Source: Actinomycetota bacterium (lineage in GTDB: Bacteria > Actinomycetota > Acidimicrobiia > IMCC26256 > PALSA-610). From it: 56,714 bases of DNA. This document shows, piece by piece, positions 802 through 33,761 of this stretch. The notes beneath the pieces are model-generated. The model made no database searches. It saw only the letters and a list, made by a program, of their open reading frames with translations, and was not told the DNA's origin. Position 1 is the first letter of the stretch, and each line of letters begins with the position of its first letter. The translations under genes were made by a program, and so were the position numbers. The stretch is from contig PLBO01000070.1 in NCBI GenBank assembly GCA_003134555.1, positions 18,400 through 75,113 on the forward strand, given 5' to 3'.

Positions 802-831
802 GGGGACGTTGAACGTGACAAACCCATGCCC
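802..831. repeat. Left terminal inverted repeat of element 1
   Basis: The repeat begins GGGGACGTTGAAC and pairs with the right repeat at 3744-3773, with four mismatches in 30 positions. Confidence 0.9.
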
Positions 832-838
832 CTAGAAT
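809..838 (+). promoter_or_regulatory. Inward promoter beginning in the left inverted repeat of element 1
   Basis: A -35-like TTGAAC (809-814), an 18-bp spacer and a -10-like TAGAAT (833-838) stand 7 nt before the GTG at 846. This is leaderless geometry and no Shine-Dalgarno is visible. The right end of the element has the same arrangement. Confidence 0.6.
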
Positions 839-845
839 CAGGCGC

Positions 846-1736
846 GTGCGGAAATGGGCGCGAACGGCGCAGAACTTCGTCCTCTTTTCAATTGAGCCGG
901 TTCGGTCAGTTGGGAAACGGCTCAATCTGGTGATCAGCCTGGTAGGGATCAGTGCTGTTGGTTTGGTTGGATCGGTGCTAGGTCCACATGGCAAGCACCA
1001 TGCGTCGCACTGGCCTTGGGGGATCGCCGGGGTGTGCTTTGGAACGATGGTTCTGTTCTTGATTGCTGGCGTGCGCCTGCAAGGACAGTTAGAACACCCA
1101 GATTCCCGAGAGCTACCAGATGAGCATCGTGAAGAACTGAATGCAGCAGCATTGCAACTCGCTAACCGAATCGCAGCCAAGGTGGGTGTGATTTACGAGG
1201 TAGACGGCGTCCATGAGGACGTCATGCGCCGGTCATTCCATGGGCATTTCCCTGAGCTGGCCTCGCTAGTCGATGAATGGGCCGCTTACACAGATCGTGC
1301 TGCCGAGCTACGGCAGCAACTCACCGCCATGCTCTCTGACCGGATGAACCAGATGGGGTTGACCCCGCCCGCGTGGCCAACGGCAACCCAAGTCCCGTGG
1401 CAGGTTTCCGGTCTCCTGGCTGACCAAGCCGAAGTTGACGAACTCGTGGGATACCCCCTGCCTCTTCAATGGGATCATCCGAACCCGACCGCGACGATGC
1501 AACATCACTGGACGTGGAGAGGGATCTATCTCTTCAACTCGCAAGGCCGCACTGACGACGGGCAGTCGCTCCGGGACACTTTCGAGTCATTCATCGACGA
1601 TATACATCTGCTGGCTGAGGCTCAGGCGCTCAAGATCCCATTGATTCCTCGCCGCCACATCCAAGACCGAGTTCTAGCGCAGCTACAAACGGCGGCCTCG
1701 CTGCACCGCTTCCGGGGATCATGCGAACTGTGCTGA
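846..1736 (+). CDS. Passenger gene of element 1: two-helix membrane protein of unknown function
   Basis: I do not recognise the family. The 296-residue product has a short basic N-terminus (MRKWARTAQ), two hydrophobic helices at about residues 27-45 and 60-78, then about 215 soluble residues rich in Trp, His and Gln. Two close membrane segments followed by a large cytoplasmic domain is a layout shared by several bacterial defence effectors, but no named domain is visible. The GTG start is set by the TAGAAT hexamer 7 nt upstream. It reads convergently towards the hicBA-like operon, with the stops one base apart. Base composition looks less GC-rich than the catabolic genes around it. Confidence 0.72.
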   Translation: MRKWARTAQNFVLFSIEPVRSVGKRLNLVISLVGISAVGLVGSVLGPHGKHHASHWPWGIAGVCFGTMVLFLIAGVRLQGQLEHPDSRELPDEHREELNAAALQLANRIAAKVGVIYEVDGVHEDVMRRSFHGHFPELASLVDEWAAYTDRAAELRQQLTAMLSDRMNQMGLTPPAWPTATQVPWQVSGLLADQAEVDELVGYPLPLQWDHPNPTATMQHHWTWRGIYLFNSQGRTDDGQSLRDTFESFIDDIHLLAEAQALKIPLIPRRHIQDRVLAQLQTAASLHRFRGSCELC

Positions 1737-1737
1737 C

Positions 1738-1857
1738 CTACTGCTCGGCTTCTGTCTCGTCCTCGCGTAGATCGACGTTGAGAAGCACCCGTAGCGCGTC
1801 CTTCGGGTCCATATCGACGTTCACCCGGTCCTCGTCCTCGGTAGGGATGTCAGACAT
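1738..1857 (-). CDS. 39-residue acidic small protein downstream of the hicA-like gene
   Basis: This short frame starts at ATG 1857, only 3 nt after the stop of the HicA-like gene, so translational coupling is likely. The product begins MSDIPTEDEDRVNVDMDP and is strongly acidic throughout. It has no signal peptide or membrane segment. Its position as third gene of a toxin-antitoxin-like operon suggests an accessory role, but I recognise no family. It is too short for default gene callers and could be missed or spurious. Confidence 0.5.
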   Translation of the reverse strand: MSDIPTEDEDRVNVDMDPKDALRVLLNVDLREDETEAEQ

Positions 1858-1860
1858 TGG

Positions 1861-2181
1861 CTATCCCTCCGCGTCTGGAGGCACCGCCGCTGCCGCTTCA
1901 GCGAACGCTTCTAGCGGGATGTTCGTTTGCGCGGCGATTCGGATCGTTGCCGGGCGTGGGATCCAGTCGTATTGCGGCACGTTAATGTACTTATTGTTCT
2001 CACCGGCTGCGCCGTACTTCACCCAGATGATGTTTTGGCCGACAGCCGTGCCGGTGAAAGGTTCATACCCATGTGCCACGAGCACCGCTTCCAGATGTGC
2101 CCGCGTGCACTGGGGAACGAAATCAAACCACTCAGCCAACGCCTGCGAGCAATCCCACTGGTCCGGTTCGGAAGTAGCCAT
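1861..2181 (-). CDS. HicA-like protein (candidate toxin of element 1)
   Basis: The 106-residue protein starts at ATG 2181 (MATSEPDQ), overlapping the end of the HicB-like gene by 50 bp. Its second half follows the HicA double-stranded-RNA-binding-like pattern: LVAHGYEPFTG, then a strand IIWVKYG, then INVPQYDW and a C-terminal helix reading IPLEAFAEA. In HicA toxins this fold cleaves mRNA using a conserved His in a GSHH-type strand. Here the aligned segment is VGQNIIWV with no His, so ribonuclease activity is doubtful and it may be a divergent or inactive HicA. The assignment rests on pattern and on its HicB-like neighbour. Confidence 0.5.
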   Translation of the reverse strand: MATSEPDQWDCSQALAEWFDFVPQCTRAHLEAVLVAHGYEPFTGTAVGQNIIWVKYGAAGENNKYINVPQYDWIPRPATIRIAAQTNIPLEAFAEAAAAVPPDAEG

Positions 2182-2515
2182 CCTCGCCGGTTCGAGACGG
2201 TATCTCAACCGTCTTGTCGTTGGTGGGCGCACCGGCAATAAGAGCGACCCCGTGCTCAATGAAGAACCGCTCGCGGTCGTCGAGAGCCTCAAGGGTGTTG
2301 AGCAGAGCAATCGCTGCGTCAAGCGCGTTGGCGAACGCTTCATCAATGTCGGAGCCGAAGGACGACACGTCAAGATCTACACAGTCGCCTATCCAAACGC
2401 CATCCTCGTGGCGAAGTTGGAACCGAAGAAGGATATGAGCCACGGGATGGTCGTCCCCCGACCGCATCACGACCCAAGCACGTCGATTACGCAGATCCAA
2501 GTCGCTATGAATCAT
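2132..2515 (-). CDS. HicB-like antitoxin-type protein
   Basis: The 127-residue product contains the HicB core: a strand pair in HEDGVWIGDCVDLDV, then the SFGSDIDEAFANALDAAIAL segment corresponding to the family pattern of a periodic signal followed by an EA-rich helix. HicB proteins have a partial RNase-H fold, bind and neutralise HicA, and repress their own promoter. ATG 2515 is preferred to an upstream TTG at 2560 because it has a G-rich Shine-Dalgarno and lies inside the operator/promoter arrangement at 2532-2560. No separate DNA-binding domain is obvious. It is the first gene of a hicB-hicA-small ORF operon. Confidence 0.6.
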   Translation of the reverse strand: MIHSDLDLRNRRAWVVMRSGDDHPVAHILLRFQLRHEDGVWIGDCVDLDVSSFGSDIDEAFANALDAAIALLNTLEALDDRERFFIEHGVALIAGAPTNDKTVEIPSRTGEDGYFRTGPVGLLAGVG

Positions 2516-2531
2516 CCTCGGCCCCCCAAAA

Positions 2532-2560
2532 ATGACACGCGTGTCGTTTCCACCGATCAA
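2532..2560 (-). promoter_or_regulatory. Promoter and palindromic operator of the hicBA-like operon
   Basis: Reading the minus strand, TTGATC (2555-2560), a 17-bp spacer and TGTCAT (2532-2537) form a plausible promoter. A perfect 12-bp palindrome GACACGCGTGTC (2534-2545) overlaps the -10 hexamer, where a HicB-type repressor would act. Autoregulation is inferred. Confidence 0.5.
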
Positions 2561-2641
2561 GTGTACCGCCGAACAGGACAGAAATCCTTGACAGGCGAGG
2601 GGGAATGCTTGACCTGTGACGAACGACCGTTCTACCTGCGA

Positions 2642-3724
2642 TTATGCCCCCGTGACCCGGCGGTAGGTCAGCCGCCGCCCGGCGACTTGGCCCATCAGAC
2701 GGCGCACCCTGGCCTCGTCGGTGACCTTCCGGGTCGAGTACCGGAAGTCGAACTCGGCCAGGTAGCGGGGCAGGTGCTCGGTGCTGACGTGGTGGTGCGT
2801 CCCGTCGATGGACCGCTTCAGTTGGCTGAAGTAGCCCTCAAGGGCGTTGGTCGAAACCATCATCTTGTTCTTGCCCTTACCCTCGTAACGGACGTACTCG
2901 TCCTCGGAGTGGTTGACCGTCCGGTGCGCAGCGACCTCGGGTTCCAAAGCGCGGTAACCGGTCCACTCGTCGGTGTGAAGCTCAGTGGCGCTCATATCGA
3001 CCTGCTCGCTGATCGCCTTCCGCAACGTCGCCCCGGTCACGTCAGGGATGACCTTGGAGCGAACCTCGCCCGTCTGAGTGTCGATCAGCGACAGCACCGA
3101 CGACTTGCGGTAGCCGGGGCCGGGGTGGCTGGCACCGACAGATTGGCCGAGCACTTCTTCGCTCGGAACGATAGGAACCGGAACAGCACCCTTCGGCTGG
3201 TAGGACCAGCGGTCCTTGACGTGCCGGTTCCTCTCGGAACCGCCGATGAACGTCTCATCGGCCAGCACGATGCCAGACAGCAACGATTCCGGGGCACCGC
3301 GGCGCATGCCCTCACGGAGCCGGTGGGCCATGAACCACGCCGTCTTAGGGGCAACGCCGTACTTGCGTTCGATCTCGCGGGCGGCGATGCCGTTCTTGTT
3401 GGCGCACATCTCGTGGATGACCATGAGCCAGGTACGAATCTCGACCTTGGAGCCGTGCATCACGGTCCCGGTGGTAACCGAGAACTGCTTGCGGCACGCC
3501 GCGCATTTCCAAACCCGGCGCGGCGATTCGCTGCCGGTACGGGTCTTGCGCGTGGGGTTGTTGGGCCGGGTCAGGGTGTTCGCCGGGGCCAGGTAGTAGT
3601 GCTTTCCGACGGTCCCGCAATGCGGGCACTCGGGGCCGTTCGGCCAGCGAAGCTTCTCCAAATAGGCGTAAGCGTCGGACTCGCTATCGAACCTTGTCAT
3701 CTTAACGGACGCGCCCTTGGCCAT
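2642..3724 (-). CDS. IS1595-family transposase of element 1
   Basis: The 360-residue enzyme cuts and joins the ends of element 1. An N-terminal zinc ribbon (CPHCG followed by CAACRKQF) is followed by a helix-turn-helix-like region (GIAAREIERKYGVAPKTAWFM) and the ISXO2-type catalytic core: first Asp in LADETFIGG, second in HTDEWTGY, and the third acidic position in ALEGYFSQLKR. Longer frames reach 3802, but that start lies outside the element; ATG 3724 lies 7 nt after a TATCCT -10 and is chosen. The gene appears intact. Confidence 0.9.
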   Translation of the reverse strand: MAKGASVKMTRFDSESDAYAYLEKLRWPNGPECPHCGTVGKHYYLAPANTLTRPNNPTRKTRTGSESPRRVWKCAACRKQFSVTTGTVMHGSKVEIRTWLMVIHEMCANKNGIAAREIERKYGVAPKTAWFMAHRLREGMRRGAPESLLSGIVLADETFIGGSERNRHVKDRWSYQPKGAVPVPIVPSEEVLGQSVGASHPGPGYRKSSVLSLIDTQTGEVRSKVIPDVTGATLRKAISEQVDMSATELHTDEWTGYRALEPEVAAHRTVNHSEDEYVRYEGKGKNKMMVSTNALEGYFSQLKRSIDGTHHHVSTEHLPRYLAEFDFRYSTRKVTDEARVRRLMGQVAGRRLTYRRVTGA

Positions 3725-3731
3725 AGGAAAG

Positions 3732-3760
3732 AGGATAATGGAAGTGCCTGGGTTTGTCAA
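3732..3760 (-). promoter_or_regulatory. Transposase promoter formed by the right inverted repeat of element 1
   Basis: TTGACA (3755-3760) lies within the inverted repeat. A 17-bp spacer and TATCCT (3732-3737) follow, with 7 nt to ATG 3724. Spacing is consensus and the transcript would be leaderless. Transposase binding to the repeat could repress it; that is inference. Confidence 0.65.
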
Positions 3761-3773
3761 GTTCAACATCCCC
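3744..3773. repeat. Right terminal inverted repeat of element 1
   Basis: Read on the minus strand it begins GGGGATGTTGAAC and matches the left repeat at 26 of 30 positions. Confidence 0.9.
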
Positions 3774-4768: not shown

Positions 4769-5992
4769 TCAGGCGACGACGCCTTTGACCTTCAGCTCGA
4801 CGATGGTGTCCCAGTCGATGCCGAGCAACTCGGAGAGGATCTCGTCCCCGTGTTCGTTGAAATCCGGGCCGCGCAAGGGAGGGGTGGGCTCCTCGTTGAA
4901 CTGAACCGGGCTGGTGACGAGCCGGAAGGTGTTGCCCTCCTTCGTCTGCAACTCGCGCACATACCCGTTGGCGACGGCCTGGGGATCGTCGACGACCTGC
5001 AGGGTGTCCTGGCACGGTGCCCACTGGCCCTTGAAGTCGCTGAGGCGCTCGAGCCACTCGTCGAAGGTGCGTGACCCGAACTCCCCGACCAGTATCTCGG
5101 CGGCGGCGGGGGCGTTGGCCGAGAGGTCCTCAGAGGTCGCGAACCGCGCGTCGGTCACCAGCTCCGGCCGGCCGAGGACCCGGCACATGTCCGGCCAGTA
5201 GTGGAAGTACTGCAGGCACGAGAAGCCCAGCCACCGCCCGTCCTTGGTCTTGTACGTTCCCGTGAGCGGGTTGCGGACCTTGTCCCGGCTCGATGGGCCC
5301 TGCAGCCACGGCACGTTGAGCTGCATCGACAGGGCGATCGCCGCGCTCATGGCCCACATGCCGGTCCCGAGCAGTGACACGTCGACGACCGTGGCCTCGC
5401 CGGTCCGTTCGCGGTACAGCAGCGCGGTCGAGATGGCCCCGGCGATCGTCATGGCTCCGATGCAGTCGCCGTACGCGGGGGCCGGCGGCGGCGGCATGTT
5501 GTCGATCTCGAAGGCCTTCGATGCCATGCCGTTGCCCGACCGGCAGTGGAAGGCGAGGAAGTCGTAGCCACCCTGGTCGGCGTCAGGGCCCTTGGGTCCG
5601 TAGCCCGAACCGCGCACGTAGATGATGTTGGGATTGTGGGCCCGGATGTCGTCCACATCGATGTGGAGGCGCCCACGCACGCCCGGGTTTTTGTTTGTCA
5701 AGAACACGTCACACGTCTTGGCCAGGTCGTACAGGATCTGCGCGCCCTCGGGTTGGGCCAGGTCGAGACCGATGCTCTTCTTGCCGCGGTTGGAGTGTTC
5801 GAGGATCACGTGCACGCCACCGGTGAGTGGCAGCACTCCGGTGCTGGCCAGGCCACGCATTGCGTCGCCCCGCTCCACGTGCTCGACCTTGATGACTTCG
5901 GCTCCCCACTCGGCGAGGATCGCGGAAGCAGCCGGCACGAAGGTGTGCTCGGCCACTTCGAGAATGCGGATTCCTGCCATCACACTCGGCAC
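4769..5992 (-). CDS. CaiB/BaiF family CoA-transferase
   Basis: A 407-residue class III CoA-transferase with the N-terminal Rossmann-like block ILEVAEHTFVPAASAILAEW, the segment GLDLAQPEGAQILYDLAK, and the catalytic Asp at about residue 176 in the motif YGDCIGAMTIAG, aligned with Asp169 of formyl-CoA transferase. It would transfer CoA to a carboxylic acid. The start is GTG 5992 because AAGGAG at 5998-6003 stands 5 nt upstream; ATG 5980 lacks a good ribosome-binding site. It is divergent from a TetR gene at 6136, which may regulate it and the ligase at 6834. The acid substrate is unknown. Confidence 0.88.
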   Translation of the reverse strand: MPSVMAGIRILEVAEHTFVPAASAILAEWGAEVIKVEHVERGDAMRGLASTGVLPLTGGVHVILEHSNRGKKSIGLDLAQPEGAQILYDLAKTCDVFLTNKNPGVRGRLHIDVDDIRAHNPNIIYVRGSGYGPKGPDADQGGYDFLAFHCRSGNGMASKAFEIDNMPPPPAPAYGDCIGAMTIAGAISTALLYRERTGEATVVDVSLLGTGMWAMSAAIALSMQLNVPWLQGPSSRDKVRNPLTGTYKTKDGRWLGFSCLQYFHYWPDMCRVLGRPELVTDARFATSEDLSANAPAAAEILVGEFGSRTFDEWLERLSDFKGQWAPCQDTLQVVDDPQAVANGYVRELQTKEGNTFRLVTSPVQFNEEPTPPLRGPDFNEHGDEILSELLGIDWDTIVELKVKGVVA

Positions 5993-6123
5993 GTCGGCTC
6001 CTTGGTTCTGGTTCCCGAGATCGGGTTCGCGACAGGATGCCCGGGCGCCGGTGGCCCCGTCCACCTCGTCGGTACCCGATGACGGCTCCTCGATGAATCT
6101 ACGTTCAATGTTCTGGAAGTCGG

Positions 6124-6129
6124 TATCGT
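6124..6129 (+). promoter_or_regulatory. -10 element of the leaderless tetR gene
   Basis: TATCGT lies 6 nt before ATG 6136 with no Shine-Dalgarno between. The divergent CaiB gene instead has a clear Shine-Dalgarno. Confidence 0.5.
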
Positions 6130-6135
6130 GGGGCC

Positions 6136-6789
6136 ATGCCCAGGAGCACGCTGCCCGCTGCCAGCCGCCGGGAGGAACGCCGGCTCCGCCAGCAGGACAT
6201 CGGTCGGTCCCAACTGCTCGACGCAGCTGAGGAGGTCTTCGGCCGCAAGGGCTTTCACGAGGCCACCCTCAAAGAGGTCGCCGATCTGGCGGAGTTCGCC
6301 GTCGGGTCGGTGTACTCGTTCTTCGAAAACAAGGATGACCTGTTCCGGCAGATCTTCGTCCGCCGGGGCGCGGAGTTCATCCCGCAACTGCATGCGATCC
6401 TGGATGACAAAAGCGCATCACCCGTCGAGCAACTTCACGCGCTGGTCGACTTCGAAGTTGGGTTTTTCCGGGCGCACCCGCACTTCGGCCGGCTGTACCT
6501 TCGGTACTCGAGCGCCGCGTACCTGTCTACGGACCGCGAGATCGACCTGGTCATGAAGGAACGGTACGAGGACGCTATGCAACTCCAGGCGGCCCTGTTT
6601 CGCCGCGGCCAGCGCGCCGGCGTCCTCTGCGACGGCGATCCCGAGGTGCTCGCCCGCCTCTTCAGCGGGATCATGTCGGCGTACCAGGCCCTCGACCCCG
6701 CCGTCGTGTCTGACGACGTCGCGCCGCGGGAGCGGCTTCCACTCACCGACCTGCACGGCATCATCGACCGGACCTTCGTCGTGCCCTGA
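6136..6789 (+). CDS. TetR/AcrR family transcriptional regulator
   Basis: The 217-residue protein has the TetR helix-turn-helix at about residues 22-65: GRSQLLDAAEEVFGRKGF, then ATLKEVADLAEFAVGSVYSFF and KDDLFRQI. The C-terminal ligand domain has no recognised signature. It lies between a divergent CaiB CoA-transferase and a downstream acyl-CoA ligase, so an acyl-CoA or acid effector controlling both is likely. Candidate operators are GTTCA/TGAAC repeats in the two flanking intergenic regions. Confidence 0.88.
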   Translation: MPRSTLPAASRREERRLRQQDIGRSQLLDAAEEVFGRKGFHEATLKEVADLAEFAVGSVYSFFENKDDLFRQIFVRRGAEFIPQLHAILDDKSASPVEQLHALVDFEVGFFRAHPHFGRLYLRYSSAAYLSTDREIDLVMKERYEDAMQLQAALFRRGQRAGVLCDGDPEVLARLFSGIMSAYQALDPAVVSDDVAPRERLPLTDLHGIIDRTFVVP

Positions 6790-18052: not shown

Positions 18053-18066
18053 CTGTTCGTATCGTA
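18046..18066 (-). promoter_or_regulatory. SOS (LexA)-like box and -10 element at the HNH gene start
   Basis: CGAACAGATGTTCG on the minus strand (18046-18059) has the actinobacterial LexA-box arms CGAAC and GTTCG with a 4-bp centre containing the ATG. TACGAT (18061-18066) is the -10 hexamer, 8 nt before ATG 18052. The other DUF222-HNH gene has the same arrangement. Confidence 0.6.
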
Positions 18067-18071
18067 ACAAC
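18064..18071. repeat. Left 8-bp target-site duplication of IS1595-type element 2 (GTAACAAC)
   Basis: GTAACAAC recurs exactly at 21078-21085, each copy abutting one inverted repeat. It overlaps the -10 region of the HNH gene. Confidence 0.88.
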
Positions 18072-18101
18072 GGGAACTATCAATTGACGACACGTACGGC
18101 G
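18072..18101. repeat. Left terminal inverted repeat of element 2
   Basis: It begins GGGAACTATCAATTGACG and pairs with 21048-21077 at 25 of 30 positions. Confidence 0.88.
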
Positions 18102-18112
18102 CTCGATCATGC
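18084..18112 (+). promoter_or_regulatory. Inward promoter in the left inverted repeat of element 2
   Basis: TTGACG (18084-18089) inside the inverted repeat is followed after 17 bp by TCATGC (18107-18112), 6 nt before ATG 18119. The -10 match is weak, but the spacing copies that of element 1. Confidence 0.4.
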
Positions 18113-18118
18113 TCGGCC

Positions 18119-18328
18119 ATGGTCATGGACAGGAAGTACAGCGCCCACGTCCACGCGATGGACACCCAACTGATCGCCGTCGCTCGTTCCGGCAATGAGG
18201 ACAGCGCCGATGCCGTCGGAAGGGTCGTCGCTCTCGCATTCGCGGAGTTGGTTCAAGCATTCTCGGATCTTGCGACCGATTTCTACGCGTTGGAATTGCG
18301 GCTCAAGGCTGTCGAAAACAAGGACTAG
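18119..18328 (+). CDS. Small helical protein of unknown function (element 2 passenger)
   Basis: A 69-residue product beginning MVMDRKYSAHVHAMDTQL, predicted to be mostly helical, with the amphipathic stretch LAFAELVQAFSDLATDFYAL near its end. I do not recognise it. ATG 18119 sits 6 nt after a possible -10 in the inverted repeat; ATG 18125 is an alternative. A frame on the opposite strand (18107-18361) is judged a shadow. The following gene starts 98 bp downstream on the same strand. Confidence 0.5.
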   Translation: MVMDRKYSAHVHAMDTQLIAVARSGNEDSADAVGRVVALAFAELVQAFSDLATDFYALELRLKAVENKD

Positions 18329-18426
18329 AAGCCCGTCGGTGTCGATTTCGATCCTCAGCACGTTGATCCGGAACCCTGAGACCCTGATTCATCTTTGGCT
18401 CTGAGGTTTCGTGATACGCTGATCGC

Positions 18427-18861
18427 GTGGATCTCGCCGCTGCTCTCACCGACGCCGAACAGGCCCTTGCCGAACTGTTGAAGACGCGGTCCGAACTCGA
18501 CGGGGCCATCGAAGATCGTCAGGCCGAGATATACGGTCTGCAACTTGCGCTCTCGCGCCATCGGCCCGAGGACGAAAACGAGATCATCTTTCCCGTCGAT
18601 CTTGGCCCTGAGGCCTCGGGCAAATATTGGCGAGGACTTGCCCGCGTCGACGCCATCGACAAGGTGTTGACGACGATGGAGACTCCGATGGGGCCGACGG
18701 AAATCTCCGAGTACCTCGGCGGTATGGGTCGCAATGACACGCCCAACGACGTTTCCGCCGCACTCGCCTACCTCAAGCGCATCGGCCGAGTCGTGCGTGT
18801 TGGCCGAGCGCGGTGGACGACACCGCAACAAGAACTTCGGGAGGTCGCGAACGCCTCCTGA
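18427..18861 (+). CDS. Coiled-coil/winged-helix-like protein (element 2 passenger)
   Basis: A 144-residue protein from GTG 18427. Residues 1-40 form a heptad-like helix (LTDAEQALAELLKTRSELDG), and residues about 75-135 read like a winged helix for DNA binding: PMGPTEISEYLGGMG, VSAALAYLKRIGRVVRVGRARW. The pattern, a helix turn then a short wing ending in Trp, is typical of predicted regulators next to mobile genes. I do not recognise a named family. It could regulate passenger or transposase expression. Confidence 0.6.
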   Translation: MDLAAALTDAEQALAELLKTRSELDGAIEDRQAEIYGLQLALSRHRPEDENEIIFPVDLGPEASGKYWRGLARVDAIDKVLTTMETPMGPTEISEYLGGMGRNDTPNDVSAALAYLKRIGRVVRVGRARWTTPQQELREVANAS

Positions 18862-18914
18862 ACAAGGTCTGCGCCGATCCGCCTCGCCAAGGCGGTAGGC
18901 GTGGAAAGCAAAGC

Positions 18915-18960
18915 CCCCTGGGTTGGGACCGCACCGCCAGTGCGGCCACCCACCCAGGGG
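18915..18960 (-). terminator. Long hairpin downstream of the element 2 transposase
   Basis: CCCCTGGGT (18915-18923) pairs perfectly with ACCCAGGGG (18952-18960) and encloses a second perfect stem CCGCAC/GTGCGG (18929-18945). On the minus strand the stem is followed by a T-rich CTTTGCTTT, which fits an intrinsic terminator for leftward transcription from the transposase. Confidence 0.45.
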
Positions 18961-18964
18961 ACTC

Positions 18965-19033
18965 GGGGCTAGCAGCTTCGCCAGGTCGAGCCTTAGAACT
19001 TGGACCTGACGGGTTGGACTCCCGTTAGCTCCA
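18965..19033 (+). ncRNA. tRNA-shaped structured RNA (69 nt) in element 2
   Basis: GGGGCTA (18965-18971) pairs with TAGCTCC (19026-19032, one G-U), followed by an unpaired A like a tRNA acceptor and discriminator. ACGGG-TTGGACT-CCCGT (19009-19025) is a 5-bp stem with a 7-nt loop like a T-arm, directly stacked on the acceptor stem. Between them a GCTT/GAGC D-arm-like stem is possible, or a competing perfect CAGGTC/GACCTG stem. There is no variable loop, no U at position 33, and no encoded CCA. It is therefore not a canonical tRNA but a tRNA-like structure or decayed tRNA. Confidence 0.35.
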
Positions 19034-19105
19034 CTAATTAGACCACACCACGGGTACCCGGCGGAGCCGAAGTACCGGTGGGCCACACCGACGACGGGAG
19101 CGGCC

Positions 19106-19303
19106 ATGGCCGATCTACCCGAGAAGAACACCACCGGGCGCCCGCGGCCACCGGGTGACGACGTAGCCGCCAAGCAGGTTCCGACGACCGAGGACGGGTT
19201 TCTCGACGCGCTCGGTCGCGTTAGCCAGCCACCGCAACCCGAGAAGAAACGGCGCGGTCGAGGATCGCCCAGAAAATCGGGTCGCGGCCGTTCCGACGGT
19301 TGA
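19106..19303 (+). CDS. Small protein with a basic RKSGRGR tail (element 2 passenger)
   Basis: A 65-residue product from ATG 19106: a polar Pro-rich N-terminus (ADLPEKNTTGRPRPPGDD), a short helix (EDGFLDALGRVSQ) and a strongly basic tail ending KSGRGRSDG. It overlaps the 3' end of the transposase gene on the other strand by 83 bp. The 47-residue protein of element 3 (30936-31079) has a very similar tail (SRKSGGRGR). Nucleic-acid binding is likely from composition alone; the family is not recognised. Confidence 0.45.
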   Translation: MADLPEKNTTGRPRPPGDDVAAKQVPTTEDGFLDALGRVSQPPQPEKKRRGRGSPRKSGRGRSDG

Positions 19304-20141
19304 ACCGGAAGCTGTACTCGTCCAAGTAGGACTGCAAGTACTCGGTCGACACCGCGTGATACGTGCCGCGGATGCCGTTCTTCACCAACGACCAGAAGCC
19401 CTCGATCGTCTGCGTGTGAACGTTGCCGTTCACGTACACGCCGGTCGAGTGGTTCACGCGGTGGTGCCTCTGAAACGTGCGGTGAAGATCCTTGTAGCCG
19501 ACGTACTCGTCGGTGAACACCGTCGATGCCGGTAGCACGTACTTGCGGTACTGCGCACCGAGGCTCCCCGCATCGACACCGGGAACGATCTTCGTGATCA
19601 CGCGGCCACCGCGCTCCACCGCACCGAACACCGCCGTCTTCGGTCCGACCTTGCGACCCTTGCTGTTCTTGCGCACGCCGCCGAAGAATGCTTCGTCCAT
19701 CTCGACTTCGCCGGTCAACTGCTCGTCGTCGTCGGCGAGCAACGTGCGGATCTGCTTGAACATGCGGTGCGCGGTCGGGTAGCTCACACCGATCTCGCGC
19801 TCCAGCTGCTTCGCGCTCATGCCGCAGCGCGTCGAGGACATTAGGAAGATCGCCCAGAACCACATCTGCAACGACGTGGTCGACTTGTGAAAGATCGTGC
19901 CCGCGGTCGGGTATACCTGGTGACGGCAGTACTGGCAGGAGTACGCCGCGCGGCTCGCTATCCGGTGGAACTTCGTGACCTTGCCGCACTTCGGGCACTC
20001 GGACCCGTCCGGGTACATCCGGGCCTTGAGCCAGTCCACGCACGCGTCGTTGTCCGGGAATAGCTCTAAGAAGCGCGAGTACGTCATCTGGGACTCGCTG
20101 CAATCCGTGGGTTCTACTGAGCATCGCTGCCTCGCTGCCAT
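19221..20141 (-). CDS. IS1595-family transposase of element 2
   Basis: A 306-residue transposase with N-terminal zinc ribbon (CPKCGKV, then CQYCRHQVYP), a helix-turn-helix segment (MSAKQLEREIGVSYPTAHRM) and the DDE core: VEMDEAFFGG, FTDEYVGYKDL and TIEGFWSLVKN. ATG 20141 is chosen over 20177 because TATACT lies 6 nt upstream and because 20172-20177 form the -35. It differs strongly from the other two transposases here, so the elements are not recent copies of one another. Confidence 0.9.
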   Translation of the reverse strand: MAARQRCSVEPTDCSESQMTYSRFLELFPDNDACVDWLKARMYPDGSECPKCGKVTKFHRIASRAAYSCQYCRHQVYPTAGTIFHKSTTSLQMWFWAIFLMSSTRCGMSAKQLEREIGVSYPTAHRMFKQIRTLLADDDEQLTGEVEMDEAFFGGVRKNSKGRKVGPKTAVFGAVERGGRVITKIVPGVDAGSLGAQYRKYVLPASTVFTDEYVGYKDLHRTFQRHHRVNHSTGVYVNGNVHTQTIEGFWSLVKNGIRGTYHAVSTEYLQSYLDEYSFRFNRRNGRDPIFWAILDRAVSSRVAVAG

Positions 20142-20147
20142 GCCCAC

Positions 20148-20177
20148 AGTATATAACACCACTGCACGTACGTGCAA
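20148..20177 (-). promoter_or_regulatory. Transposase promoter with a 14-bp palindrome in its spacer
   Basis: TTGCAC (20172-20177), an 18-bp spacer and TATACT (20148-20153) lie 6 nt before ATG 20141. The perfect palindrome TGCACGTACGTGCA (20163-20176) overlaps the -35 and the spacer and is a likely repressor site. Confidence 0.6.
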
Positions 20178-20184
20178 CCACTTT

Positions 20185-21027
20185 TCATGCGAACCTGATC
20201 CGGGTCGTCCGAAGGATTCCCAGGGACGCCAACTCCTGCTTGCCCGCGATCAGCTCGGTCACCAGCAGTGGAACGCCGTCGTCCCAACCGCCGCCGCCCT
20301 CCGGGGGATACAACGGAGCGATGGTGCGGTCGGCCTGCTCAAAGAAGAACAGTGCGACTTCGGCGCTTTCCTGCGGCCCCAAGTTGAGCGGTCCGGTCAG
20401 CGGATCATTGGCCCAATGTGGCTCCACAGCCGGCCCGGTGTGCTTCGCGTGCCAACTCAGCTGATCGTGGAATCGGTGCGGGTAATAGTCGGCGTAGCCC
20501 TCGACCTGAAGGGCGAAATCGAGGGTGGCACTGTCGTTCTTCGATCGGTTGGTGATCGTCAAGTGATCGACATGAAGCCACCGCGGTTGGTCTGGGATCG
20601 GTATCTGCGCGGTGGCGCTCGGGATGAGATCCACCAGCCGTCCCTGCTCGATTCCCCGAACCCGTAAGTCGAGAACGATCCGGCGCTTGAACCATCCCAA
20701 GCGCAAGAGCGGGAATAGCGTGAGCAACCCCGCGGCAGATCCGATCACGATCAACGCAGTGAGCGCCCCGGTCGGGTATCCCGGCTTGGGTTGTCCCACG
20801 GGAGGGACAGCAGCCCAAATGGCCGCGACAGCCAACCCGGCGAGGCCGAACGCCGCGCTCATGATCGCAATCCCATAGGCCAACCAATGGCCGCGATCGA
20901 GGGACCGCTCGTCGGCAAACTCGCTAACAGGTCGCCAGATATCGGGTCGACCAGAGCCGACCCATACGACCGCGAGTACCCCGACGAAGAGGAGAGCCCA
21001 GATGCCTGCGGAGACTGCGTCGAACAT
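20185..21027 (-). CDS. Membrane-anchored protein of unknown function (element 2 passenger)
   Basis: The 280-residue product has three N-terminal membrane helices (about 5-24, 48-72 and 86-108) and a C-terminal soluble domain of about 165 residues, predicted beta-rich, with WLHVDHLTITNRSKNDSATLDF and GPQESAEVALFFFEQ. The soluble part resembles immunoglobulin-like or carbohydrate-like folds only loosely. I do not recognise the family. It starts 50 bp inside the right inverted repeat, as the end genes of element 1 do, so the repeat probably supplies its promoter. Confidence 0.65.
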   Translation of the reverse strand: MFDAVSAGIWALLFVGVLAVVWVGSGRPDIWRPVSEFADERSLDRGHWLAYGIAIMSAAFGLAGLAVAAIWAAVPPVGQPKPGYPTGALTALIVIGSAAGLLTLFPLLRLGWFKRRIVLDLRVRGIEQGRLVDLIPSATAQIPIPDQPRWLHVDHLTITNRSKNDSATLDFALQVEGYADYYPHRFHDQLSWHAKHTGPAVEPHWANDPLTGPLNLGPQESAEVALFFFEQADRTIAPLYPPEGGGGWDDGVPLLVTELIAGKQELASLGILRTTRIRFA

Positions 21028-21047
21028 GGACTAATCGTCGCACGAAC

Positions 21048-21077
21048 CGGCGTACGTGTCGCGATTTGATAGTTACC
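21048..21077. repeat. Right terminal inverted repeat of element 2
   Basis: Read on the minus strand it begins GGTAACTATCAAATCGCG and matches the left repeat at 25 of 30 positions. Confidence 0.88.
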
Positions 21078-21085
21078 GTAACAAC
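21078..21085. repeat. Right 8-bp target-site duplication of element 2 (GTAACAAC)
   Basis: Exact copy of 18064-18071. Confidence 0.88.
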
Positions 21086-30677: not shown

Positions 30678-30786
30678 ACTTTGTTATCGGGGTTGCCAGC
30701 GGTAGCTTGGCCGGAGGTACCGACTGCTTTGACGCACCAAATCAGGGCCTCACCGTCGGCTTGGTGGCGGCGGGTACCGTTGGGGC

Positions 30787-30939
30787 GTGACTCATAGGAA
30801 GCCGGTCCCGAAGCATGAACACCCCAAGCCCGAGCCGACCGACTACGAGAGGTTCGAGGACCTGGCGAAGAAGCTCGCCCGGGTGCCGAAACGGGAGATC
30901 GACGCGGAGCGAACGAAACAGAACGGGAACGGGAAATGA
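30787..30939 (+). CDS. 50-residue charged small protein (element 3 passenger)
   Basis: From GTG 30787, the product begins MTHRKPVPKHEHPKPEP and continues with a predicted amphipathic helix, YERFEDLAKKLARVPKREID. Small mobile-element proteins often have this FEDLAKKLxxVPKxEI type of helix. It overlaps the next ORF by four bases (ATGA), which supports translation of both. No function is recognised. Confidence 0.55.
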   Translation: MTHRKPVPKHEHPKPEPTDYERFEDLAKKLARVPKREIDAERTKQNGNGK

Positions 30940-31079
30940 CCGAGGACGACAAGCCAGCCGCGCAACCCGAACAACCGGCGCAGCCTGCGAAGAAGCCCGA
31001 AAACATTCCCGCGAAGGAAGCCACCGTGAAGCGGTCGCGCAAGTCGGGCGGCAGAGGCCGAAACGTCAAGCGGCGCTAG
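30936..31079 (+). CDS. 47-residue protein with acidic/Pro N-terminus and basic tail (element 3 passenger)
   Basis: ATG 30936 overlaps the preceding stop (ATGA). The product starts MTEDDKPAAQPEQPAQP and ends with the basic SRKSGGRGRNVKRR. The tail resembles that of the 65-residue protein in element 2 (19106-19303). A nucleic-acid-binding role is inferred from charge only. Its stop overlaps the stop of the convergent membrane-protein gene. Confidence 0.5.
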   Translation: MTEDDKPAAQPEQPAQPAKKPENIPAKEATVKRSRKSGGRGRNVKRR

Positions 31080-31567
31080 CGCGAATAACCCACCGCGAGA
31101 GCCCACGCAACCACCTGCAAGCCCAAGCAGCTGCACGCGATAGCGAACACGATCTGCAGGCATGCGAGAATCCTGTCGTTCTTCTCGCGAAAACCCTCGA
31201 ACGATTTCGCAAGATGCGCAGTGACGGTGATCTCATCCAGCGCAGCCCCTTCGATCAACCGGTCGATATATGGCGCAAGTTCGTGTTCCGTGTGGAAGGT
31301 TCGCGGCCAGAGCACGACCACCGACGCGACAACGGTCGCGCCGAACACGATGAATGCGAACCACTCGCAGCCGGTCGAGAAGTCCGAGCGGCCGCTCTTG
31401 AACGTCACCGCGCCGAACACGGCCGCGACGATCGACGCACCAAGTAGAACGGTCGCTACCGACCCCCGCAACGAGTTCAGCGCGGTTTCCTGCGCTTCCA
31501 CCTGACGCCGCGCTTCTTCGAGAACTTTCGCCGCCGCTGGACCGTTGTCGAACAGTTCGTCGGTCAT
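31076..31567 (-). CDS. Multi-helix membrane protein, possibly SLATT-like (element 3 passenger)
   Basis: A 163-residue protein with an N-terminal helix (AAAKVLEEARRQVEAQETAL), two membrane segments (about 35-55 and 68-88), a central amphipathic region and a third hydrophobic segment near the C-terminus (IVFAIACSCLGLQVVAWALA). SLATT-type effectors combine a helical cytoplasmic part with two membrane helices, and this is similar in outline only. ATG 31567 begins TDELFDNG. It lies 14 bp downstream of the transposase on the same strand. Confidence 0.6.
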   Translation of the reverse strand: MTDELFDNGPAAAKVLEEARRQVEAQETALNSLRGSVATVLLGASIVAAVFGAVTFKSGRSDFSTGCEWFAFIVFGATVVASVVVLWPRTFHTEHELAPYIDRLIEGAALDEITVTAHLAKSFEGFREKNDRILACLQIVFAIACSCLGLQVVAWALAVGYSR

Positions 31568-31581
31568 CGCAGCCTTCTTCC

Positions 31582-32526
31582 TTACGCGGTCAGTTCCGTC
31601 CAAGTCAATCTCCGGCCAGCTATGCGGCGGAGCACGGTCTGGAAGCGTTCCAGATCGGTGAGGTCGCGCAGGTTGAACGCGAATACTCGCTCATCGACAT
31701 AGCGCCACAGGTGCGCCTCATCGACGGCGACGTAGGTGCCGTGAAGGCTTCGCTTCAGGAGCGCCCAGAAGTTCTCGATCCCGTTTGTGCTGACCCGCCC
31801 GCGGGCGTACTCGCCGATGTGATGGTCGACCGCCTGGTGCTTGTAGTCGCCGGTCAGCGCGCGGTAGCCGATCGCGGCGTCGGTGTAGACAGCGGCACCC
31901 GGCTCGACGTTGCGGACAACGTGCCCGCGCGGCGAGTTCCACTTCGTTTCGAGCATGACTTCCGCGACGACTTGCGAAGCCTGTTCCTCGGTGGTGCGTT
32001 GCAGTGAGCCGACCACCATCTTCTTGTCCGCGATCCCGCCCCGAACGGTGAGCTTGCGTGCTCGGTCACCCTTGCGGACGTTCTTCGCTGCCCCGCCGAT
32101 GTAGGTCTCGTCAACCTCGACTTCGCCGTCGAGCTTCTGGAATGTGCCCGTCCGCATCGCCAAACGGATGCGATGCAAAACGAACCACGCGGCCTTCTGG
32201 TTGATCCCCACCGCGCGGCCAAGCTCGTGCGACGAAACACCGTTCTTCGAATTGGCGATGAGCCAGATGGAACACAGCCACTTGTCGAGCGGGATCGCGG
32301 AGTCCTCGAAGATCGTCCCCTGCTTGACGCTGAATTGGCGATGACAGTCGCGGACCTTGCACTTCCAGAGCCCGCGCGAGGACAGCCAGTAGTGCTCTGT
32401 GCCTTCGCACGAGGGGCAGACCGGCCCATCCGGCCACCGAAGCTTCGCCACGAAGTCGATGCAGACCTGCGGGTCAGCAAAGTAGCGGGTTGCTTCGAGA
32501 AGGGTGCGGGGCAGGTTCTTACTCAC
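31582..32526 (-). CDS. IS1595-family transposase of element 3
   Basis: A 314-residue transposase with a zinc ribbon (CPSCEGTEHYW, then CKVRDCHRQF), a helix-turn-helix-like part (GVSSHELGRAVGINQKAAW) and the DDE core: VEVDETYIGG, YTDAAIGYRAL and GIENFWALLKRSLHG. GTG 32526 lies 6 nt after TACACT. The frame is complete. It is clearly distinct from the transposases of elements 1 and 2. Confidence 0.9.
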   Translation of the reverse strand: MSKNLPRTLLEATRYFADPQVCIDFVAKLRWPDGPVCPSCEGTEHYWLSSRGLWKCKVRDCHRQFSVKQGTIFEDSAIPLDKWLCSIWLIANSKNGVSSHELGRAVGINQKAAWFVLHRIRLAMRTGTFQKLDGEVEVDETYIGGAAKNVRKGDRARKLTVRGGIADKKMVVGSLQRTTEEQASQVVAEVMLETKWNSPRGHVVRNVEPGAAVYTDAAIGYRALTGDYKHQAVDHHIGEYARGRVSTNGIENFWALLKRSLHGTYVAVDEAHLWRYVDERVFAFNLRDLTDLERFQTVLRRIAGRRLTWTELTA

Positions 32527-32538
32527 GTGGTGAGTGTA
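32521..32538 (-). promoter_or_regulatory. -10 element and palindrome at the element 3 transposase start
   Basis: ACTCAC-GTG-GTGAGT (32521-32535) is a perfect inverted repeat centred next to the GTG start codon. TACACT (32533-32538) is 6 nt upstream of it. The layout suggests repressor binding over the start of a leaderless transcript. Confidence 0.5.
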
Positions 32539-32555
32539 CGACTCGGGTGTGACAG

Positions 32556-33341
32556 CTACGACGGGCGCAGATGCTCGATGCTCGATGCTCCGAGTACGTC
32601 CCCTTCGGTCAACTCACGCTGCGACTCGGAGCCGCCGTATAGGAGTCGAAGCACGACCTGCGCCGCGTCAAGCCACTCGCGCTGCCGCTGGGCGTCGAAG
32701 CTCCCAGCTTTGGGGTCCGGTAGCTCCTGCCAGAGCCCTACGAGCAATGGGTGGCGCACGGGAAGCGTTGACTCGCTCCGTGCAGGAGCCGGTCGAGTGT
32801 GAGGGGATTCGTCAGGTTCGACCGAGGCCACAGCGGGCATTGTAGGCCCTGGCTTCACCAAGCGTTCGCGTCCGTGACGGAAGAAGCCAGCTTGCTCGGC
32901 GGAGCGTTGCAGCGACTGCCGCGCCTTGGCAGAAACCTTCGGGCTTACCCCAAGCCGCCCCAGTTCGTGCTCAAATCCTTGGTCGTGGGGGAGATTACGC
33001 CCTTTGAACCGCTCGAATACGGCAGCGTAGAGTGGGACTGCGAGGAATGCTTCTACCTTGGCCGCGTCCTCTGTCTGCGGATCGAGAGCACGACTGCCCA
33101 GTTCCGTGAGCTGGACTTGACCGCCTCGAATCGTCTCTAGAAGGCCGAACGTGGCAGCGGTAGCGATCTTGTTACGGAAGGCTCCGCTGACGTTGTAGCC
33201 CATCGCGCCGGCCAGCTGGTCAAGCGAGCACTCGAACCCGAAATTGGCATGGATTACACGGGCCAATTCCAGAGCATCATCGAGATCCCCATAGGGAAAC
33301 CGAATCGAAGATCGTTCTCGTGTCTGCGTTGTTTCTGCCAT
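32556..33341 (-). CDS. Winged-helix-like protein of unknown function (element 3 passenger)
   Basis: The 261-residue protein has an N-terminal region of two helix-turn-helix-like units: DDALELARVIHANFGFECSL then AGAMGYNVSGAFRNKIATAA, GLLETIRGGQVQLTELG. A second helical part follows (PLYAAVFERFKGR), and the C-terminus is low-complexity then helical. Such proteins of actinobacterial mobile DNA have no assigned function that I can name. ATG 33341 lies 6 nt after TATTCT and about 50 bp inside the right end of the element. Confidence 0.65.
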   Translation of the reverse strand: MAETTQTRERSSIRFPYGDLDDALELARVIHANFGFECSLDQLAGAMGYNVSGAFRNKIATAATFGLLETIRGGQVQLTELGSRALDPQTEDAAKVEAFLAVPLYAAVFERFKGRNLPHDQGFEHELGRLGVSPKVSAKARQSLQRSAEQAGFFRHGRERLVKPGPTMPAVASVEPDESPHTRPAPARSESTLPVRHPLLVGLWQELPDPKAGSFDAQRQREWLDAAQVVLRLLYGGSESQRELTEGDVLGASSIEHLRPS

Positions 33342-33492
33342 ACCAAGAGAATACCAGAAGGCTAGGCAGAAACAATCGGAAACTAGGCCACTACCGGGCG
33401 GTCGCGCGGTGCGTGGTTGCGCTCGCGCGTCGGGAGCGCAGGCAGAACGGAGGGGCGGTCAGAAAAATTGTCTGCCTCGTATGCCGGTCCGC

Positions 33493-33521
33493 GTGACTCG
33501 CCCGATCGCGGCGGCTATGCT
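33493..33521 (+). promoter_or_regulatory. Promoter of the short leader ORF
   Basis: GTGACT (33493-33498), a 17-bp spacer and TATGCT (33516-33521) lie 5 nt before ATG 33527. Confidence 0.45.
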
Positions 33522-33526
33522 TGAAG

Positions 33527-33598
33527 ATGACGAAGCCCCACCGAAGTGGGGCCCGTCCCGAGTCTCTCCGAGAGGAGGTGGTGCCTATGAGGGTCTGA
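33527..33598 (+). CDS. 23-residue leader-type ORF
   Basis: The ORF reads MTKPHRSGARP...EEVVPMRV and stops at 33596-33598. It starts 5 nt after a TATGCT -10, so its transcript would be leaderless. Its codons coincide with a hairpin GCCCCAC-CGAA-GTGGGGC (33535-33552) and contain a strong internal Shine-Dalgarno GAGGAGG just before ATG AGG GTC TGA. Leader peptide, small protein or chance are all possible. Confidence 0.4.
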   Translation: MTKPHRSGARPESLREEVVPMRV

Positions 33599-33743
33599 CG
33601 CCGGTGGAACCGGCGCAATCGATGCCCTATCCGACTACCGGAGCGCCCTCACGGCCCAAACCGTGGGGGTGTTCCGCGTCGGAACACCATTGTACGTCCG
33701 ATCGGCACCCCTGGCGAGCTTCGAAGGGGTTGGTGAGCCAGGG
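33599..33743 (+). ncRNA. Highly structured stretch upstream of a hypothetical gene
   Basis: Consecutive hairpins occur: CGCCGGT/ACCGGCG (33599-33615), CCCTCACGG/CCGTGGGGG (33646-33669), GTGTTCC/GGAACAC (33669-33687), then a CCCTGGC (33709-33715) that can pair with GCCAGGG (33737-33743), while the overlapping ACCCCT (33707-33712) can pair with AGGGGT (33725-33730). These last two pairings exclude each other, as in switches or attenuators. The stretch 33396-33526 holds nothing else I can identify. No known riboswitch family fits. Confidence 0.35.
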
Positions 33744-33761
33744 CAGTCGGTACCTGGCCGG

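Follow-up and report, generated by a model that had tools for sequence, protein, structure and literature searches.

A tRNA-like RNA with a UAG anticodon loop in an IS1595-family element and the CUA codon usage of the linked transposases

The element and its tRNA-like RNA

The window analyzed here, a 56,714-nucleotide stretch of an Actinomycetota genome (contig PLBO01000070.1), contains an IS1595-family insertion sequence (IS) element of 3006 bp at positions 18072-21077, which carries a tRNA-like RNA in addition to its transposase gene and several passenger open reading frames (ORFs) (Table 1). The element ends, GGGAACTATCAATTGACGACACGT and GGTAACTATCAAATCGCGACACGT, are identical at 20 of 24 positions, or at 25 of 30 by blastn, and this repeat pair ranked top in a mechanical scan for target-site duplications combined with inverted repeats, in which only 4 of 60 loci gave matches, each of 15-16/24, when the right flank was reversed as a control. 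A previous reading made without database searches (the sequence-only reading) had proposed a 3006-bp IS1595-type unit with 25/30 repeats and exact flanking copies of GTAACAAC, and its coordinates proved correct; the family assignment was borne out by Pfam (DDE_Tnp_IS1595, PF12762, 7e-40; IS1595 zinc ribbon, PF12760, 2e-8) and by NCBIfam (transpos_IS1595, NF033547, 208 bits against a cut-off of 75). The comparison with close genomes that it had suggested supports mobility: in the same-genus genome G166 the left flank (2.6 kb) and the right flank (1.9 kb) are each 88% identical to those of the window and meet at a single GTAACAAC, and therefore the element has truly transposed. Passengers fixed at the same place without a transposase were not encountered, the G166 locus being without the whole unit. 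No DNA similar to the element was found in phage and plasmid collections, plasmids giving only transposases of less than 60% identity, and viral contigs scanned with two passengers of the element gave nothing.

Table 1. Features of the IS1595-family element (positions in the window)
Feature	Position	Strand	Remarks
Left target-site duplication GTAACAAC	18064..18071	.	Identical to 21078-21085; single copy in the G166 empty site
Left inverted repeat	18072..18101	.	25/30 identity with right end
Small ORF, 69 aa	18119..18328	+	No family match; CTA 0/7 Leu codons
Passenger, 144 aa	18427..18861	+	Coiled-coil N-terminus and winged-helix-like C-terminus; fold assigned by eye
Strong hairpin directly 5' of the tRNA-like RNA	18913..18962	+	Present upstream in other copies, sequences differ
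Alanine-type tRNA-like RNA, 69 nt	18965..19033	+	Pattern (regex) scan; covariance model R1, 85 bits
Small convergent ORF, 65 aa	19106..19303	+	Motif TTEDGFLDALGRVSQ, basic tail; overlaps transposase 3' end by 83 nt
IS1595-family transposase, 306 aa	19221..20141	-	Pfam, NCBIfam; CTA codons at residues 27, 100, 203
CTA codon for Leu100	19842..19844	-	Context FLMSSTRCG; CTA in 9/10 tRNA-bearing relatives
Passenger membrane protein, 280 aa	20185..21027	-	N-terminal hydrophobic segments; upstream of transposase, co-directional
Right inverted repeat	21048..21077	.	Pairs with left end
Right target-site duplication GTAACAAC	21078..21085	.	Identical to left copy; G166 empty site has one

The RNA folds with a 7-bp acceptor stem bearing G3.U70 and A73, a 2-bp D stem, a 5-bp T arm and an anticodon-like hairpin, the loop of which (CUUAGAA) presents the anticodon UAG. 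The acceptor/T branch is best read as 7/5, or else as 8/4 with a G.U eighth pair. The anticodon arm has a long, bulged stem, and the long variable arm is absent from this and the other alanine-type copies. As an ordinary tRNA it was detected neither by ARAGORN nor by the Rfam tRNA model, and Rfam at a lax threshold returned only chance microRNA matches; genes of this kind escape the usual tRNA-finding programs and Rfam. The tRNA-shaped RNA noticed in the sequence-only reading is nevertheless real. By blastn against relatives, positions 18965-19033 are kept at the compared locus L053, and the pattern scan over all loci placed the RNA in the same slot in none but the closest relatives, where it is encoded 170-210 nt beyond the transposase end and on the opposite strand, with the exception of L174, in which the RNA and the small ORF lie upstream of the transposase and on its strand. 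Several of the compared loci derive from metagenome bins, and their assignment may be wrong.

A covariance model built from four copies recovered L138, L215, L188 and L174, none of which was in the model. Ten alanine-type copies were collected, eight of them beside IS1595 transposases, with G3.U70 in 10/10 and the discriminator A73 in 9/10. Standard pairs are formed in 119 of the 120 cells of the acceptor and T arm over the ten copies, a value reached by 0 of 5000 shuffles, and acceptor positions 4-7 and the T stem covary while G3.U70 stays fixed; the D-loop/T-loop pair 19-56, as inferred from the alignment, is G-C in L053 and L054 and C-G in the window. The loop CUUAGAA or a similar one, with U33 and the anticodon UAG (CCUAGAA in L138), was found in every IS1595-linked copy. 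In total, eleven copies have the UAG loop, nine being alanine-type (the eight beside IS1595 transposases and L285) and two serine-type with an 8/4 branch. The remaining alanine-type copy (L286, 7730-9179) has G3.U70, a loop CUCUAAA and a hairpin upstream, and stands beside an IS5-like DDE_Tnp_1 transposase, so elements of other IS families may also carry tRNAs of this family. That the L286 copy might be an amber suppressor was rejected, as the transposase frame there ends in UAA and has no internal UAG.

The RNA could also be a dead tRNA or transfer-messenger RNA (tmRNA) fragment, such as a former attachment site, that travels passively with the element, and a 26-nt match of 85% to the 3' end of the host tmRNA points in that direction. 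This remnant was dropped because covariation appeared over the ten copies, and the invariant G3.U70 and the same slot across different hosts also speak against it, making it a very improbable account. The Rfam tmRNA model (RF00023) did not match the element, and the two ordinary tmRNAs of the host are located elsewhere. These two genes of the window's genome (G000; C83:322396-322748 and C51:9193-9545, loci L003 and L004) are divergent, with 70% identity.

The two serine-type tRNAs, in L231 and L056 (Dormibacterota metagenome-assembled genome), have G73, a long variable arm, an 8/4 branch and the UAG loop, and they occupy the same setting as the alanine-type RNA. They were obtained with a search in which 8/4 and 9/3 acceptor branches were allowed, and which gave any match in only 3 of 600 shuffled regions. 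In L231 (4670-5609) the transposase is spread over two frames, by a frameshift that is either programmed or a sequence error.

CUA codons and the decoding of the transposase

The anticodon UAG reads the codon CUA. In the 34 host ORFs of the window CTA makes up only 11 of 967 leucine codons (1.1%), while the ten tRNA-linked transposases use it for 43 of 188 leucine codons (23%) and 48 relatives without the tRNA, of similarly high GC at third codon positions, for 67 of 970 (7%). The excess in the tRNA-linked transposases (odds 4.0, p 8e-10) is the largest of all codons. The wHTH (winged helix-turn-helix) passengers beside the tRNA have CTA at 1 of 79 leucine codons, and the 144-aa passenger of the window at 0 of 16, thus regional composition is not the cause of the skew. 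In addition, L231 had shown the highest CTA fraction among the non-members before its serine-type UAG tRNA was recognised.

The match is sharpest at residue 100 of the transposase, a near-invariant position occupied by leucine in most relatives. CTA encodes it in 9/10 tRNA carriers in comparison to 3/130 of the others, and given each gene's own CTA use the chance of this is about 5e-6 for the one column and 8e-5 over 17 leucine columns. The argument draws its force from the fact that a synonymous codon stays fixed here at protein identities of about 50-65%, whereas other invariant-leucine columns have mixed codons. One might suppose from the enrichment and the matching anticodon that the tRNA is a helper, supplying CUA decoding for the CUA-rich genes of the element in hosts with little tRNA-Leu(UAG). 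We regard this as improbable, as the acceptor identity is Ala or Ser and not Leu, an ordinary tRNA-Leu(UAG) is present in the host, and CUA at a leucine-only position would be misread by such a helper.

We tentatively favor, as quite possible but short of probable, the reading that the element encodes a misacylated CUA-reading tRNA which mistranslates and so restrains its own transposase. We propose slightly more cautiously that an essential leucine retains CUA as its codon to let Ala- or Ser-tRNA(UAG) tune down the functional transposase, which would be programmed missense decoding. In this reading the element lineage carries, near-constantly, a chimeric tRNA gene combining an alanine acceptor identity (serine in some relatives) with a UAG anticodon. 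The transposase, and probably the small convergent protein as well, is loaded with CUA, including at a leucine that hardly varies. The host tRNA-Leu(UAG) would decode CUA as leucine and yield an active transposase, and the element tRNA would compete with it by inserting alanine or serine, which would give a missense, inactive enzyme. The fold, the identity element, the link to the transposase and the codon match were computed from the sequences, and we infer that the RNA is transcribed, processed, charged and used in decoding, with an effect on transposition; presumably it would share a transcript with the wHTH gene that recurs adjoining it and then be freed by tRNA-processing enzymes. Transposition would thereby be limited in trans, in proportion to copy number and at little cost to the host proteome.

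Several points weigh against this proposal of self-restraint. A Codetta-style profile likelihood gave leucine as the best residue at CUA sites overall, and a clean reassignment of CUA to alanine was therefore rejected; the per-site leucine support at CUA is far weaker than at CTC, CTG and TTG, with some sites favoring Ala, Ser or Gly. Leucine being the best and yet weakly supported, CUA is not cleanly reassigned, and CUA at one critical leucine and at tolerant sites fits an ambiguous decoding as Leu or as Ala/Ser. The CTA excess of the small ORFs alone is not significant (p 0.09). The ten transposases come from about one tree neighborhood (eight form a starred clade, close to which L138 and L056 are placed), so the tree is compatible with a single origin and the per-sequence statistics given above overstate independence; a phylogenetic independent-pairs test had no power. 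The long bulged anticodon stem makes ribosomal use uncertain, and a review reports that activity in E. coli was lacking for some of the allo-tRNA-like RNAs linked to transposons (PMC7609411). Finally, L285 (genome G694, 5582-6393) holds a module of wHTH gene, hairpin and tRNA(UAG) in the vicinity of which neither an IS1595 transposase nor inverted repeats were found, so the module is not strictly tied to IS1595, and together L285 and L286 show the tRNA family to be wider than IS1595. No small ORF was found in the L285 module.

The non-standard anticodon stem would be accommodated if the RNA were a cis-acting leader without ribosomal use, the tRNA-Ala-like fold of which lets RNase P, AlaRS or another tRNA-binding protein cut or regulate the small-ORF mRNA. 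The RNA usually lies 40-100 nt upstream of the small ORF and behind the hairpin, even in L174, in keeping with this account. This unlikely explanation does not account for the constancy of the UAG loop, for its recurrence on a serine-type body or for the CTA enrichment at the key leucine, and L285 has the RNA without the small ORF. The transposase-free module of L285, the wHTH protein of which weakly matches AbiEi, lends itself to a different account, in which the tRNA mistranslates CUA-rich foreign genes, such as those of lower-GC phages or plasmids, the module being defense or addiction cargo and the transposase merely tolerating CUA. It agrees with the avoidance of CUA by the host, and allo-tRNA-like genes have been suspected as toxin-antitoxin parts (PMC7609411). 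It does not predict CUA at a near-invariant leucine of the transposase, and PADLOC found no defense family among the window passengers; we consider it distinctly unlikely.

Passengers and other elements

In most delimited elements a small ORF faces the transposase and overlaps or abuts its 3' end, with a motif such as IPVPxRxxFLxxLxKA, and for this reason the small convergent ORF seems to belong to the core of this IS subgroup. Its copy in the window holds a CTA codon at 19115-19117. An ArfA-like ribosome rescue function for this basic-tailed ORF was considered and dropped, because its tail varies and runs antisense to the end of the transposase gene. The motif also forms the C-terminal tail of a passenger protein in some elements of Acidobacteria, and such a tail was seen in L058, L059, L077, L097, L109 and L128, as if the module were joined to the cargo.

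The 144-aa passenger had no confident Pfam match and no homologue among 58 genomes of the order; its position-equivalents are found in L053, L056, L216, L231 and L285. The slot of the 280-aa membrane protein is occupied by unrelated membrane proteins in L053 and L054, and this protein thus behaves like ordinary exchangeable cargo. The sequence-only reading had described the passengers accurately, including the lack of likeness to known resistance or catabolic genes, except that the 144-aa ORF is not nondescript in view of its fold. Passenger status holds for the membrane protein but not for the tRNA-like RNA and the convergent ORF, which are not ordinary passengers: when it was asked whether cargo travels with the transposase, these two were found to recur with this transposase lineage across hosts and cargo.

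The same scan delimited two more IS1595 elements in the window with perfect 8-bp duplications, CCGGTCTG and TGGCCGGA, and with other cargo, namely element 1 (802-3773) and element 3 (30716-33754). The transposase of element 1 is only 29% identical to that of the 3006-bp unit and its ends differ, which, with the third element present, indicates separate arrivals, as had been claimed for the first two. In element 3 there are a homologue, 50 aa long, of the L049 small convergent ORF and a wHTH-like protein of 261 aa. About 70 elements of 1.0-3.8 kb were delimited in all, nearly all with extra sequence other than the transposase; a protease-like passenger family was observed in 25 of them, and an 'RSALDHL' family of about 270 aa in 16-19 elements from several phyla, L069, L058 and L097 being examples of elements with these recurrent families. 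In L240 a tRNA-like gene of glutamine type, the anticodon region of which is non-standard, lies just 3' of the transposase, and a 17-nt inverted copy of that region follows shortly downstream.

Comparison with known systems

If the self-restraint reading is true, a rare codon together with a mobile misacylated tRNA can serve transposons to regulate their own activity and possibly that of one another, which suggests a new way for transposon self-control. In the literature searched we found neither IS1595 elements containing a tRNA nor other tRNAs encoded by transposons, and no description of self-regulation by a rare codon and a mobile wrong-amino-acid tRNA. The closest known counterparts are the allo-tRNAs, reportedly described by Mukai et al. 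2017 and reviewed in PMC7609411. Others have shown that alanine- and serine-type allo-tRNAs with non-cognate anticodons work in E. coli (PMC7609411). The RNAs studied here resemble them in Ala (G3:U70) or Ser identity combined with a non-cognate anticodon and in their occurrence in soil bacteria, and the unusual allo-tRNA branch, in which 12 bp of acceptor and T stem are divided 8/4 or 9/3, is seen as 8/4 in L231 and L056. That combination was found as G3.U70 and A73 with UAG in the alanine-type copies and as the G73 type in L231 and L056, the 8/4 branch and long variable arm of which fit the published description of allo-tRNAs. The window copy differs in being best read as 7/5 without the long variable arm, and in its location inside a transposon of defined ends, the transposase gene of which uses the matching codon in excess. 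The transposon link mentioned in the review is only a pseudogene overlapping a transposon-related ORF, and the role of such transposon-linked genes was left open by its authors (PMC7609411); the question becomes directly testable here because the elements that contain the tRNA have exact boundaries, both its identity elements and its anticodon are conserved, and the codon it matches is enriched in the transposase and stands at a key residue.

With other IS1595 insertion sequences carrying passengers the element shares the transposase domain, the zinc ribbon, inverted repeats starting with GG, 8-bp duplications and cargo, and it differs from them by its tRNA gene and conserved small convergent ORF, features that the literature searched does not mention. 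The tRNA-like domain of tmRNA likewise bears the alanine determinants G3.U70 and A73 and a T arm, and its D stem is reduced or missing, while the window RNA is a contiguous 69 nt with an anticodon-like UAG loop and no tag ORF. In Streptomyces, bldA is a host-encoded true leucine tRNA for a rare leucine codon in selected genes. The likeness lies in a rare leucine codon of selected genes that is read by one tRNA, and the difference is that the tRNA of the window is mobile and of Ala/Ser identity, while bldA is encoded by the host and carries leucine.

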